From Herbidospora sakaeratensis (GTDB taxonomy: Bacteria; Actinomycetota; Actinomycetes; Streptosporangiales; Streptosporangiaceae), in contig NZ_BBXC01000015.1 in NCBI RefSeq assembly GCF_001570525.1, forward strand, positions 62,001 through 126,000: a stretch of DNA of 64,000 nucleotides, written 5' to 3'. The translations under genes and the position numbers were made by a program. Shown in pieces: positions 20,157 to 24,447 of this stretch (position 1 is the stretch's first letter; each line of letters begins with the position of its first letter). Under the pieces are notes generated by a model. That model saw nothing but the letters and a program-made list of their open reading frames with translations, ran no database searches and had not been told where the DNA came from.

Positions 20157-22184
20157 TTACCGCTTTTGGTCACGCTTGTTGAGCTTTGCCAGATAGTCGT
20201 TGTAGGCGTCGAGTTCGGTGTCACCGGTCCCGCCCGTGCGCGCCGCGACCAGGTCGGCCTTGCGGTCGAGCCGCCGGGCGACCCGCTCGTCGGCCCGCCA
20301 CCACTGGACGGCCAGCGCGATGAGCACGATCAGCGTGGGAATCTCGCCGAAGCCCCAGGCGATGGCCCCGCCGGTGTTCTGGTCGGCCAATGACGACGCG
20401 CCCCAGGTTCGGCCGAGCTGTTCGTACCAGTCGACGGCCAGGACACCGCCCATGCTCATGATCGCCATCGCGAAGAACGCGTGGAAGGGCATCGTGACGA
20501 ACAGCAGCAGCATGCGGCCCACATAGGGCAGCTTCGTTGGCGCCGGGTCGACCCCGACGATCACCCAGAAGAACAGGGTGCCGGTCAGCAGGAAGTGCAG
20601 CGACATGGCGATGTGCCCGAGGTGCTCCTCCATGGCCGACTCGAACAGCGGCGTGAAGTAGAGCGCGTACGTCGACACGACGAACAGGGCGGTCGCGATG
20701 GCCGGGTGGGCGACGAACTTGGCGACCCGGCTGTGCAGGATCACGGTGATCCACTCGCGCGGCCCCCGGTCGCCCCGGCGCGCGGCCGGCTTCAGCGCCC
20801 GCAGCGCCAGCGTGACCGGCGCGCCGAGCACCAGGAAGATCGGCACCAGCATCGAGAGGATCATGTGCTCGGTCATGTGCACGCTGAACAGCACCGGCGC
20901 GTAGCGGGCCACGCCGCTCTGGGTGGTCAGCACGAGGATCACGATGGCCAGGCCCCACGCGATCGACCGCCCGAGGGGCCACTTGTCGCCGCGCCTGACG
21001 AGCCGGACGACCCCGGCGGCGTACAGGCCCCCGAGGACCGCGGCGATCACGGCGAAGAAGAGATCGAACCACCAGAGCGTGAGCAGGTTCGTGACGGAGA
21101 TCGGCGGCGGCATGACGTAGCCGAGCAGGTCGAACGCCCGGTCGGTGGGCAGCGTCTCGACGGGCGGCGGCGCGGTCTGCGCGAGCGCCACGGCGATGCC
21201 GACGGTGCCGGCCATCAGCATGATCTCGCCCAGCACCAGCTTGACGAACGCCATCGGCCGCCCGGCGGCCAGATCGGGCAGGGTGCGCTTGCGGTGCCAC
21301 CAGCCGACGGCGCCCAGCGCGGCATATGCGACGATCTTGACGAGCAGGATCACCCCGTACGCCGAGGTGAACAGCGCCGACACCGACGCGATGCGGGCCG
21401 CGACCGACGCCAGCCCCGACAGGCCGACCCCGACGAAACACCAGAACGCCATGCGGGAGAACCGATCGGCGGCCAGCGGCAGCCGGTCGTGACCACGCAG
21501 GGCGTGGTAGCAGAGCAGCCCGAGCCCGCCCACCCAGAGCGCCAGGAACAGCAGGTGGAAGGCGACCGACGTGGTCGCCAGCCCGTGGTTGGGAGCGCTG
21601 GAGGAGTGCCCGGTCAGCGCCGGCGGCAGCAGCGTGGCCAGCGAGAACACCAGCAGCCCGCCGGCCGCGCCGACGGTGATGGCCCCCCGCGCGAACAGCG
21701 CGATCGAGACCGAGAACAGCACGACGAGCGTGAGCGCGATGCCCTGCGGGGTCTGCCCGGCGTAGCTGGTCAGCTGATTGCCGTCGAGCACGACGCCGAC
21801 CGGCTGGCCGAGCGACTGCGACAAGCCGAAGACGAGGTTGAGCGCCGCCGCCCCGCCCCACACCAGGGCCGCCCAGCTGGCCGCCTTGACGTAGCCGAGG
21901 GCGGTCTTCCCGAGCAGCCCCTTGTCGGAGGGCAGCAGCGCGGCGGCCATGAGCAGCAGCCCGACGGTGACCAGCCCCGCGACGTCCATGCCGAGCTTGG
22001 AGACCGGCACCATCCACCGGGTGAGCGTGCCCTCGTCGGGCAACCCCGGGATGACCCGCGGCGTGGCCGCGCCCCCCGCCACCATGCCGACGACCAGCGC
22101 CCCGGCGGCGGCGCACCCACCCGCGATCGCGAGCCGGACGGTACGGTTCATCCGGGCGGCCTTCCCATCGGACATTCCGGCCAT
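20157..22184 (-). CDS. CopD-CtaG fusion membrane protein (copper import / oxidase assembly)
   Basis: This 675-residue membrane protein has about fifteen hydrophobic helices in two blocks. Residues 1-320 are CopD-like, with GHSSAPNHGLATTSVAFHLLFLALWVGGL carrying the conserved His and WVGG. Residues 350-660 are CtaG/caa3 assembly-like (MTEHMILSMLVPIFLVLGAPVTLALRAL, EHLGHIAMSLHFLLTGTLFFW). The fusion probably moves copper across the membrane and delivers it for cytochrome oxidase assembly. The start ATG shares one base with the TAA stop of the CopC gene (TAATG), so the two are coupled. A short GGGTT-TGCCG-AACCC hairpin lies at 20127-20141 just after its stop. Confidence 0.9.
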   Translation of the reverse strand: MAGMSDGKAARMNRTVRLAIAGGCAAAGALVVGMVAGGAATPRVIPGLPDEGTLTRWMVPVSKLGMDVAGLVTVGLLLMAAALLPSDKGLLGKTALGYVKAASWAALVWGGAAALNLVFGLSQSLGQPVGVVLDGNQLTSYAGQTPQGIALTLVVLFSVSIALFARGAITVGAAGGLLVFSLATLLPPALTGHSSSAPNHGLATTSVAFHLLFLALWVGGLGLLCYHALRGHDRLPLAADRFSRMAFWCFVGVGLSGLASVAARIASVSALFTSAYGVILLVKIVAYAALGAVGWWHRKRTLPDLAAGRPMAFVKLVLGEIMLMAGTVGIAVALAQTAPPPVETLPTDRAFDLLGYVMPPPISVTNLLTLWWFDLFFAVIAAVLGGLYAAGVVRLVRRGDKWPLGRSIAWGLAIVILVLTTQSGVARYAPVLFSVHMTEHMILSMLVPIFLVLGAPVTLALRALKPAARRGDRGPREWITVILHSRVAKFVAHPAIATALFVVSTYALYFTPLFESAMEEHLGHIAMSLHFLLTGTLFFWVIVGVDPAPTKLPYVGRMLLLFVTMPFHAFFAMAIMSMGGVLAVDWYEQLGRTWGASSLADQNTGGAIAWGFGEIPTLIVLIALAVQWWRADERVARRLDRKADLVAARTGGTGDTELDAYNDYLAKLNKRDQKR

Positions 22185-22744
22185 TATGGCTTCTTGCGCA
22201 TGCTGAAGGCCATGCCGATCCCGATGCCGGCGATCCCGAAGACCACGATCCACACCCAGGCGGGAATCTGCCTGTTCTCCTCGGGCGCGGCGGGGTTCGC
22301 GGGGGCGCTCGGCGTGGGCGCCGCGACGGCGGCGGCCTGGACCGGCTGCGGAGTGGCCGGCGCGGCCCCCCGCCCGGCGGACACCGGCGCGTAGGTGAAC
22401 GGGATCTCCCCCTCGACGGGGTGCCCGTCACGGGAGACGACGCGGTAGGCGATCGTGTAGGCCCCGGAGGGCAGCGCCGAGGCGGGCCCGACGTCCTGGA
22501 CGACCTTGCGCCCGTCGACCCGGGGCTTCCCGTTCTCGTAGCGCTGGCCGTCGGGCCCGGTCAGCACGACGGCGGGGAACCGCACCGACTCGCTGAACTC
22601 GAGCGTCATCCTGGGCAACGCGGTGACCCGCGTGTTCTCGGCGGGATCACTGCTGCGCAGAGAGGTGTGCGCGGCGGCCGGCGCGGAGGGCAGCAGAAGG
22701 GCCGCGACGACGGCCAGAACGGCGACGATCGGTGAACTCTTCAT
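22184..22744 (-). CDS. CopC-domain copper-binding exported protein
   Basis: This 186-residue protein has a Sec signal peptide (MKSSPIVAVLAVVAALLLPSAPAAA) whose cleavage leaves His as the first mature residue (AHTSLRSS), the arrangement that forms the Cu(II) histidine brace in CopC. The fold motifs SDPAENTRVTALPRMTLEFSE and VSRDGHPVEGEIPFTY follow, with a second metal His in RDGHPVEG. A Pro/Ala-rich linker leads to a C-terminal membrane anchor (IPAWVWIVVFGIAGIGIGMAF) and a basic tail. It is the first gene of a two-gene operon and presents copper to the CopD-CtaG fusion protein. Confidence 0.92.
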   Translation of the reverse strand: MKSSPIVAVLAVVAALLLPSAPAAAHTSLRSSDPAENTRVTALPRMTLEFSESVRFPAVVLTGPDGQRYENGKPRVDGRKVVQDVGPASALPSGAYTIAYRVVSRDGHPVEGEIPFTYAPVSAGRGAAPATPQPVQAAAVAAPTPSAPANPAAPEENRQIPAWVWIVVFGIAGIGIGMAFSMRKKP

Positions 22745-22827: not shown

Positions 22828-24117
22828 TCACAGGCCGACGCAGGCCAGCGCCTTCTGGGCGGCGATGATGCTCTGGTCGTGGTCGTGGAGGCGGTCGTAC
22901 GCCTCGGCCACGGTCAGCCAGCTCTGGGCCCAGCGCCGCATCGGGGCCGGGTCGAAGGCCTCGGTCGCGTGGTTGAGGGCGACGGCCGCCTCTTCGTCCT
23001 CGTGGAGGATCAGGAGGGCCTGGCCCTGGACCAGGTTGGCGTCGGCCCAGTGCTCGCCACGGGAGTCGCGGAGCATCTCGTCGGCCACGCGGGTGTTCTC
23101 GACCGCCTGGCGCGGGTTGCCGAGCGCCAGTTCCGTGCGGCCCAGTTCGATCTGGCAGCGGGCCTTGTCGAGGACCGAGGCCGAGGACTCGCTCATCTCG
23201 CGCTGCGCGCGGAGCAGCAGGTCGCGGGCGGCCTCGACGTCGTTGGCACGGGTGCGGACGATCATCGTCGCGTAGGCCACCCGGAGGCGGGCCAGGTTGC
23301 GGTGGTCGCCGTTCTCGGAGTGGATGGCCATCGCCCGCTCGAGCAGGCTCATGCCCTCCTCGCCGCGACCGGTCTCCTGGGCGACGAAGGCCGCGTTCCA
23401 CGAGGCGGCCACGATGGCGCGGGGGGTGCCGAGGAGCTCGGCGGCCGAGAGCAGCTCGGAGGCGAAGTGGCGGGCCCGCAGCAGGTCGCCGCGGGTGCGG
23501 TAGACCGACAGCAGCGTCGAGCCGAGCTCGATCAGGGCGTCGGTCCAGGCCGGGCGGGTGGTGCCGCCGAGCAGCGCCTCGCCGACGCGGACCGCCTCGC
23601 CGAGCTCGCCCTCGTCGCGGTAGCAACGGCAGAGCGCCACCGCGACCGCCACCTGCCACTCGACCGACATCGGGCGCTCGGTGTCGGCGCGCAGGCCCTT
23701 CAGCAGGCGGATCGCCTCACGCCGGTCGCCGCACGCCTCGGTCGCCAGGGCGCAGCCGTATTCGGCCTCCTGGCGGAGCTGGGCCAGACCGGTGAGGCTG
23801 GTGTCGGTGAGGAGCTCGGCGTAACGGCGGCGGGCTTCCTGGGCTTCGCCGTTCTCCAGCGCCAGCCGTGCGAATCGCAGGCCGACCTCGATCTCTTCCA
23901 TCTGTTCGGCGGTGACGCCATTGACAAGATAAGTGAGAGAGCAGTCGAGTTTTTGAGCCAGGAGCTCCAGAACTGCCGGAGTAGGGGTACGCTTACCGCT
24001 CTCAATTAGGGAAACATAGCTGTCGGACAGCTCAGGATGTGCGAGTTGCGCTTGAGAGAGCCCCCGCTGTCGGCGGATGGTCTTGATGCGCTGACCCACT
24101 AGATCTTGACCGGTCAC
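22828..24117 (-). CDS. XRE-TPR transcriptional regulator, RRNPP-like architecture
   Basis: This 429-residue protein has an N-terminal XRE helix-turn-helix (residues 5-65: VGQRIKTIRRQRGLSQAQLAHPELSDSYVSLIESGKRTPTPAVLELLAQKLDCSLTYLVNG) and a C-terminal array of about eight TPR-like helix pairs (for example AQEARRRYAELLTDTS, GELGEAVRVGEALLGG, GRGEEGMSLLERAMAIHSENGD, LGNPRQAVENTRVADE). This is the layout of RRNPP peptide-pheromone receptors. I chose the GTG at 24117, preceded by CCAGGGGGTG; the longer frame to 24258 would overlap the divergent peptide gene on the other strand. The divergent 42-residue exported peptide 52 bases away is the obvious candidate ligand. Function is inferred from layout. 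Confidence 0.85.
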   Translation of the reverse strand: MTGQDLVGQRIKTIRRQRGLSQAQLAHPELSDSYVSLIESGKRTPTPAVLELLAQKLDCSLTYLVNGVTAEQMEEIEVGLRFARLALENGEAQEARRRYAELLTDTSLTGLAQLRQEAEYGCALATEACGDRREAIRLLKGLRADTERPMSVEWQVAVAVALCRCYRDEGELGEAVRVGEALLGGTTRPAWTDALIELGSTLLSVYRTRGDLLRARHFASELLSAAELLGTPRAIVAASWNAAFVAQETGRGEEGMSLLERAMAIHSENGDHRNLARLRVAYATMIVRTRANDVEAARDLLLRAQREMSESSASVLDKARCQIELGRTELALGNPRQAVENTRVADEMLRDSRGEHWADANLVQGQALLILHEDEEAAVALNHATEAFDPAPMRRWAQSWLTVAEAYDRLHDHDQSIIAAQKALACVGL

Positions 24118-24169
24118 CAGCACCCCCTGGAAAAATGCAAGAACCTCTAGACCCGACGGGAGCCCCACC
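24118..24169. promoter_or_regulatory. 52-bp divergent control region of regulator and peptide
   Basis: The only DNA between the regulator start (24117) and the peptide start (24170). It is locally AT-richer (GGAAAAATGCAAGAACC), holds a TCTAGA palindrome at 24145-24150 and the GGGAG ribosome-binding site of the peptide at 24158-24162. Both genes must be driven from within it or from inside the other gene. Confidence 0.45.
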
Positions 24170-24298
24170 GTGCGACGCCGCCTGATCACGCTTGCTCTTA
24201 CGACCTTGTTTGCGGTTACCACCGCCGCAGGGATCAATGCTACGGCCGCCAGCGCCACTTCGTCCCCGCTGAAGGTTTACAGCATCGAATGCTGCTGA
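24170..24298 (+). CDS. Secreted 42-residue peptide ending in Cys-Cys, candidate signal
   Basis: A short gene with a GTG start and a GGGAG site seven bases upstream. The product begins VRRRLITLALTTLFAVTTAAG, a textbook Sec signal (three Arg, hydrophobic core), reaches an AxA-type site at ATAASA, and leaves about 13 residues, TSSPLKVYSIECC, with two adjacent cysteines at the very C terminus. It lies divergently beside an XRE-TPR regulator, as pheromone precursors do beside RRNPP receptors in Firmicutes. A stem-loop begins at its stop codon and a strong terminator lies 115 bases on. I do not know a described family for it. Coding status is inferred from signal-peptide quality, start context and position. 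Confidence 0.6.
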   Translation: MRRRLITLALTTLFAVTTAAGINATAASATSSPLKVYSIECC

Positions 24299-24315
24299 CT
24301 CGTTACGTGAGTCAG
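24295..24315 (+). terminator. Stem-loop overlapping the peptide stop codon
   Basis: CTGACTC (24295-24301) and GAGTCAG (24309-24315) are perfect arms with loop GTTACGT. The TGA stop of the peptide is inside the left arm. It could be a weak terminator or an mRNA-stabilising structure; it has no T-run. Confidence 0.5.
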
Positions 24316-24412
24316 GAAAGTCAAGAGAAGTTTCCTAGCGTGAACCCCATGTGAGCCTCCCCCACCGACTCCCAGGCACCGGGACGGATCCCCTGGCCAC
24401 AGCATGAACTCG

Positions 24413-24447
24413 GAATCGCGGCACTGGCCAGTGCCGCGATTCTTTTT
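24413..24447 (+). terminator. Strong intrinsic terminator
   Basis: GAATCGCGGCAC (24413-24424), loop TGGCCA and GTGCCGCGATTC (24431-24442) form a perfect 12-pair stem followed at once by TTTTT. This is the best intrinsic terminator in the window. Between the peptide stop and it lie two further small inverted repeats (AGGAAA...TTTCCT near 24314-24336 and a CCAGG/CCTGG nested stem near 24372-24396), so the peptide mRNA has a structured 3' leader of about 115 bases. Confidence 0.85.

Follow-up and report, generated by a model that had tools for sequence, protein, structure and literature searches.

A short peptide gene ending in Cys-Cys codons, divergent from an XRE-TPR regulator in Herbidospora sakaeratensis: a candidate peptide-signalling pair of Actinomycetota

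The RRNPP systems of Bacillota include the regulator-peptide pairs PlcR-PapR, NprR-NprX, Rgg-SHP, ComR-XIP and AimR-AimP. In the excerpted text of PMC10075063, RRNPP systems are placed in Firmicutes, and the signals of Actinobacteria are described as typically small molecules. Searches of open PMC papers gave no description of peptides such as the one considered here.

We analyzed a window of 64,000 nucleotides from H. sakaeratensis, in which an earlier note had described a 42-codon ORF at 24170-24298 and a divergent XRE-TPR regulator 52 bp away. Both are as described and their coordinates were confirmed. The features of the locus, in window coordinates, are:

20157..22744, minus strand: copC and copD-ctaG, downstream of the regulator and on the same strand; given as context, with membership in the system not implied
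22828..24117, minus strand: XRE-TPR regulator, 429 aa, GTG start at 24115-24117; presumed receptor
23395..23517, minus strand: TPR stretch with the candidate tail-reading residues T201 (23515-23517), A237 (23407-23409) and N241 (23395-23397)
23914..24096, minus strand: HTH domain of the regulator, residues 8-68, dN/dS about 0.01
24118..24169, no strand: divergent intergenic gap of 52 bp with both ribosome-binding sites; presumed control region
24170..24298, plus strand: peptide precursor, 42 aa, GTG start, MRRRLITLALTTLFAVTTAAGINATAASA/TSSPLKVYSIECC; adjoins the regulator in 7/7 genomes of the genus and beyond
24170..24256, plus strand: predicted signal peptide, 29 aa, with an A-S-A end, from hydropathy and pattern
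24257..24295, plus strand: predicted secreted tail TSSPLKVYSIECC; positions before CC vary, CC is kept
24290-24295, plus strand: terminal Cys-Cys codons, within the predicted tail
24296..24314, no strand: palindrome TGACTCGTTACGTGAGTCA (TGACTC-N7-GAGTCA), overlapping the peptide stop codon; in 7 Herbidospora genomes
24412..24443, plus strand: stem of an intrinsic terminator 3′ of the peptide gene, from hairpin energy and shuffles

The ORF at 24170-24298 encodes the full precursor MRRRLITLALTTLFAVTTAAGINATAASATSSPLKVYSIECC and is preceded by a Shine-Dalgarno-like CGGGAG at 24157-24162. Compared with Pfam, the peptide matched no family above its cut-off. Signal peptides were called throughout from hydropathy and an A-x-A pattern, and an AxA-like site precedes the tail in 92/92 distinct CC (Cys-Cys-ending) peptides of the family. 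The earlier note had the transcript ending at the best intrinsic terminator of the window. The hairpin at 24412-24443 is stable at -25 kcal/mol (z -5.96, with 0/200 shuffles equally stable), although a simple terminator scan returned 1 such site vs 0.8 in shuffles.

The regulator carries an N-terminal XRE-type HTH (HTH_3, E 1.8e-11, above cut-off) and C-terminal TPRs, with TPR_12 and TPR_19 barely above their cut-offs. Its AF2 model, from 7 close sequences (pLDDT 78.5, pTM 0.62), consists of the HTH followed by a TPR superhelix. When the model was compared with the PDB by Foldseek and VIA-align, generic TPR proteins came out on top, led by LGN, and for this reason the fold does not single out RRNPP. 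Among the fold matches are also PlcR-PapR-DNA (3u3w; rank 24, E 2.7e-6), RapI (Z 22.0, the Rap range being Z 20-22), a Rap protein with its pheromone, and NprR (Z 20.5). The modeled fold fits a peptide receptor and is no proof of one. At the sequence level, phmmer matched PlcR and ComR over the HTH only, and the six named relatives returned by one scan, 91-99% identical to the regulator, all come from Herbidospora species. Within its own genome, the regulator shares 32-33% identity with its two closest full-length paralogues, and no CC-ending short ORF lies within 1.5 kb on either side of those two. Apart from this, the first 60 codons of the regulator (HTH, window 23938-24117) have a GC3 of 0.58-0.82 vs about 0.93 for most of the remaining gene across 120 non-redundant orthologues; extra synonymous constraint at this 5′ end was looked for and not found, codon identity there being lower, not higher.

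The earlier note had set conservation of the peptide beside the regulator in related genomes as a test of the pair, and such conservation was found within the genus, the family and the class. The peptide adjoins the regulator in 7/7 Herbidospora genomes searched, with tails of the form SSPL[KR][VPT]YS[IL]ECC. When 297 family genomes were searched with a peptide profile made from four Herbidospora variants, 23 loci outside the genus came back, 22 of them roughly 55 bp from the start of a divergent orthologue with 54-64% identity. The one match without an orthologue, L056, was rejected as a lipase-like false hit; it was left out of peptide profile A3 together with L050 and L064, which have no CC, and near-identical peptides were partly omitted. 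A regulator profile gave matches at E <= 1e-70 in 193/297 family genomes, with a mild bias because it was built from regulators found beside peptides. Regions were fetched from this list with some rows skipped, the selection not being made by peptide. The L157-L227 set comprises 73 regulator rows: a CC peptide accompanies 59 of them, a signal-like ORF with another tail 13, and a longer precursor the remaining one (L215). Taken over all distinct close-orthologue upstream regions, a small signal-like ORF is present in 105/105, with 88 ending in CC, 16 having other tails and L215 again making up the last. Nine more distant family regulators (L143-L145, L235-L240) include four with a CC peptide (L235, L236, L239, L240); close by the mid-distance regulators L143-L145, L237 and L238 none was seen. 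Tandem regulator-peptide pairs with differing CC tails occur in L157 and L158, two genomes of one genus.

The CC end belongs to signal-like ORFs near the regulator. Counted over loci that are mutually related, so that the trials are not independent, it is found, in the 600 bp upstream of 150 distinct regulators, in 109/129 short divergent ORFs that are signal-like and begin no more than 220 bp away, vs 1/366 non-signal-like divergent ORFs and 1/479 other-strand ORFs of the same regions; in loci of at least 7 kb, it occurs in 80/149 signal-like ORFs within 400 bp of the regulator vs 2/82 further off, while other ORFs have it in 0/896 cases near the regulator and 3/3388 further off. Signal-like CC-ending ORFs at L226 7639-7809 and L250 6952-7089 lie >1.2 kb from the detected regulator, and these may have another partner.

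Beyond the family, a related regulator (E <= 1e-40) was found in 41 genomes among 394 of the class, and 34 of these 41 have a signal-like CC ORF within 1 kb. One locus was examined per class genome (two for G626), and genomes with several regulators are mostly represented by one. The 34 ORFs comprise 26 divergent upstream, 7 convergent downstream and 1 same-strand upstream; since CC endings persist through these different arrangements, the link between peptide and regulator is no accident of DNA inherited around one promoter. No CC peptide was seen in G376, G388, G395, G432, G459, G527 and G632, with a contig end near in three of them. Altogether the pair is present in nine actinobacterial family codes. 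For the genus that we take to be Streptomyces, the regulator is found at E <= 4e-70 in 7 of that genus's 41 genomes, four of which have a CC peptide and one a peptide ending CCSVDT. CCYE-ending signal-like ORFs were also seen between tandem regulators in L231 and L234, the CCSVDT end being that of L259; judged from these ORFs, a few residues may follow CC in some peptides (L231, L234, L259). Elsewhere, in L289 and L292, the regulator has a CC-ending signal-like ORF on both sides, the upstream one divergent and the downstream one convergent.

The pair also occurs on plasmids. A plasmid collection includes 16 records with a regulator relative, and two of the six opened have a CC peptide (L270, Nonomuraea gerenzanensis; L272, Streptomyces goshikiensis), with none in the scanned stretches of the other four. 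On the plasmid of S. goshikiensis CGMCC 4.1796, the peptide WP_008741297.1 (71 aa, ending AAHTKDIPLCC) is encoded on the same strand as, and after, the regulator WP_271245308.1. A phage collection yielded one partial relative (MT836207.1 107-1069, Bacteriophage sp. from human faeces), with 33% identity over 75% of the query, and a scan of viral contigs with two short patterns confirmed no case.

These comparisons bear on whether the ORF could merely accompany a regulatory element that is conserved as DNA or RNA. Such an element would fit the high conservation of intergenic and downstream DNA within Herbidospora, but across genera the signal peptide, the A-x-A site and CC are kept with little conservation of the DNA around the ORF, and the position of the ORF varies while CC is kept. 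We find this explanation barely credible. The earlier note had likewise set amino-acid against nucleotide conservation, and it is the former that is observed: CC is retained and the residues before it change at a near-neutral rate.

The non-coding DNA has some features of its own. About 65 bp after the peptide stop, within 24296-24366, are near-identical in 7 Herbidospora genomes, and in most of these the same stretch contains GGAAA-N11-TTTCC as well as the palindrome. The palindrome at 24296..24314 could possibly be an operator or a piece of the regulator's promoter; there is no second copy of it in the genome at <=3 mismatches, and a search of the genome with it found no regulon. An operator common to all genera was considered and rejected, as the intergenic and downstream DNA shares just the two ribosome-binding sites and, in part, TGA-n-TYGTTAY. 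Read by eye, this last motif, directly after the stop codon, might be the regulator's -10 region, and a promoter scan did not find the sigma-70 consensus.

On the other side of the regulator, copD-ctaG follows in 77/77 and copC in 75/77 close-orthologue loci, downstream and on the same strand, and vicinal thiols are able to bind soft metals. Both facts lend themselves to the main rival explanation, by which the Cys-Cys peptide would be a secreted copper or redox reagent and no signal, with the regulator governing the adjacent copC and copD-ctaG. However, the same loci also keep pucR (57/77), a kinase-like gene (58/77) and map (54/77; the last two named by eye, with flanks of 3-4 kb), so the cop genes may reflect plain synteny. 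Loci of other families have cop genes within about 4 kb in 0/12 cases, yet 10 of these 12 have the CC peptide; conversely, the W-x-x-P loci tested (see below) retain the cop genes without CC. Nor is any tail position other than CC conserved. We therefore regard a copper or redox reagent as unlikely.

The constant Cys-Cys end on a gene-encoded peptide would also suit a RiPP precursor, with cysteines modified to an unknown product. Scanned neighbors comprise EamA, PntA-like, ParA, DEAD helicase, Na/Ca exchanger, Ppx, TetR and PucR, and these eight, a small sample, include no RiPP enzyme; the few other neighbors scanned vary between loci. Across the neighborhoods scanned, we see neither a constant target gene nor a constant processing enzyme. 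A RiPP precursor seems to us quite improbable here, though the idea is compatible with that of a pheromone that is itself modified.

Among close orthologues, 21 regulators have non-CC tails, most of them like WGWPG, WNHPD or WSYPD (W-x-x-P-x), and that of L130 ends LNNAE. Since one group keeps the regulator without CC in the tail, the system as such can do without the cysteines. The precursor of L215, at 91 aa, contains four WNGPD units and that of L201 contains GWTYPE and AWTYAE, a repetition of the unit within one precursor as a processed signal would allow. The earlier note had proposed to look for a conserved ECC; only CC is conserved in the tails of the family's CC peptides, and positions -3 to -11 have an entropy of 3.1-3.8 bits (92 distinct peptides selected for CC). 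Among close relatives, dN/dS is 0.01 for the HTH, 0.20-0.24 for the TPR part and 0.53-0.55 for the signal peptide, and for the ten residues before CC it runs from 0.80 (22 non-overlapping pairs) to 1.15 (98 overlapping pairs). A signal and its receptor would be expected to show this pattern, with the HTH frozen, the sensor changing slowly and the tail changing fast except at its fixed end. With CtaG controlled for, tail distance tracks TPR distance across 65 loci at a partial r of 0.34; the signal peptide does so nearly as well (0.28), and linkage therefore explains much of this correlation.

Some TPR residues vary with the type of tail. A set of 118 distinct close orthologues divides into 97 of CC type, in which A237 and T201 do not vary, and 21 of other type, in which these positions are mostly Leu and Gln, respectively; N241 is present in 93/97 of the CC type. 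Across all families, 74 TPR columns are >=80% identical among 52 CC-paired regulators, and six of these (G179, T201, A237, N241, N274, L364) are kept in <=1/9 W-x-x-P-type regulators. N241 itself occurs in 50/52 CC-paired vs 5/28 unpaired regulators, the 28 including the 9 of W-x-x-P type. L231_5834, L233_3672, L234_5772, L259 and L147 were set aside from this table because CC is not at the end, a peptide was not seen or the contig ends, and each of them has N241. In L236 and L240, a CC peptide is present and the regulator is without N241. In L231, L233 and L234, the regulator nearer the query is without T201, W240 and N241 and a more distant tandem copy has all three; the CCYE peptide adjoins that distant copy in L231 and L234, and none was seen in L233.

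Phylogenetically independent support for these residues is thin. A test on independent pairs gave 3 for, 0 against and 3 without difference (p 0.25), and only 2 changes are needed to account for the W-x-x-P tail type on a quick tree, where the W-x-x-P group does not come out as one clade. The first (A) helices form the groove-lining side of TPR arrays, and 5/6 of the tail-type-linked columns lie in A helices of the AF2 repeats, as do 39/71 conserved columns in a set that counted the unpaired L231_4088 and L232_5296 as CC-type; with about half of all conserved columns in A helices, there is no enrichment.

The same residues speak to another alternative, in which the XRE-TPR protein would be a repressor and the secreted peptide that it controls a toxin, a bacteriocin or a surface peptide. 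A short secreted-type peptide next to an XRE regulator would fit such a role, and the fast evolution of the tail would fit an arms race; against it, TPR residues track the tail type, the few loci inspected have no recurring immunity gene or dedicated transporter, and the predicted tail has about 13 residues and is once repeated inside one precursor. We judge a toxin or surface peptide to be decidedly unlikely.

Taken together, we think it probable, though some way from certain, that the secreted tail is a pheromone read by the cytosolic HTH-TPR regulator, in a two-gene module working like the RRNPP systems of Bacillota. The peptide would be made with its signal peptide, exported and cleaved after A-x-A; the resulting tail, about 13 residues long, might be shortened further. 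Re-entry would be by an oligopeptide permease, and the genome encodes 12 Opp-type binding proteins. Inside the cell, the tail would be bound in the TPR groove. We see the cysteines chiefly as an invariant end for recognition, comparable to the constant terminal residues of some streptococcal pheromones, and they may act as thiols, as a vicinal disulfide or in a modified form. A fixed pocket would read this end, the best candidates for it being T201, A237 and N241, which lie in the first helices of two adjacent repeats; strain specificity would come from the variable residues ahead of CC. The HTH domain would then be switched by binding, acting at the divergent promoter that the two genes share and possibly at other sites; in a gap of 52 bp, one bound regulator could control the pair.

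A wider proposal, which we put forward tentatively and consider rather doubtful, is a large actinobacterial pheromone superfamily spanning at least nine families, including Streptomyces, in which CC would be the handle for the TPR-groove pocket and the receptor may read one redox form only. The last point follows from the ability of a vicinal dithiol to open and close, and reading of one form would mean that cell density and redox state are reported together.

Should the pheromone reading be true, pheromones encoded by genes adjacent to those of their receptors would extend from Herbidospora and Nonomuraea to Streptomyces, and dozens of easily made peptides would become candidate inducers of development or of silent gene clusters. 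The pair makes peptide quorum sensing in Actinobacteria directly testable, and the W-x-x-P group together with the tandem-repeat precursor offers natural material for receptor swaps.

Among described systems of actinomycetes, the XRE-DUF397 pairs of Streptomyces (SCO4441-SCO4442; PMC6262351) are similar in placing an XRE regulator beside a small gene. Unlike in those pairs, the partner here is a signal-peptide ORF with no Pfam match over the cut-off, DUF397 included, and the regulator has TPRs. The NsdA family of TPR-like regulators (NCBIfam NF053720) shows a weak match to the TPR part (E 0.0013), but at 18.3 bits against a curated cut-off of 75 the regulator falls outside it. From RRNPP systems the locus differs in its Actinomycetota host, in the constant Cys-Cys C-terminus and in a sequence likeness to PlcR and ComR that is confined to the HTH. 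It resembles them in the adjacency of the two genes, in combining a small propeptide that has a predicted export signal with an HTH-TPR protein, and in having PlcR, NprR and Rap among the structure matches of its regulator. As far as anatomy tells, the peptide-regulator pair is RRNPP-like and a candidate member of that group.
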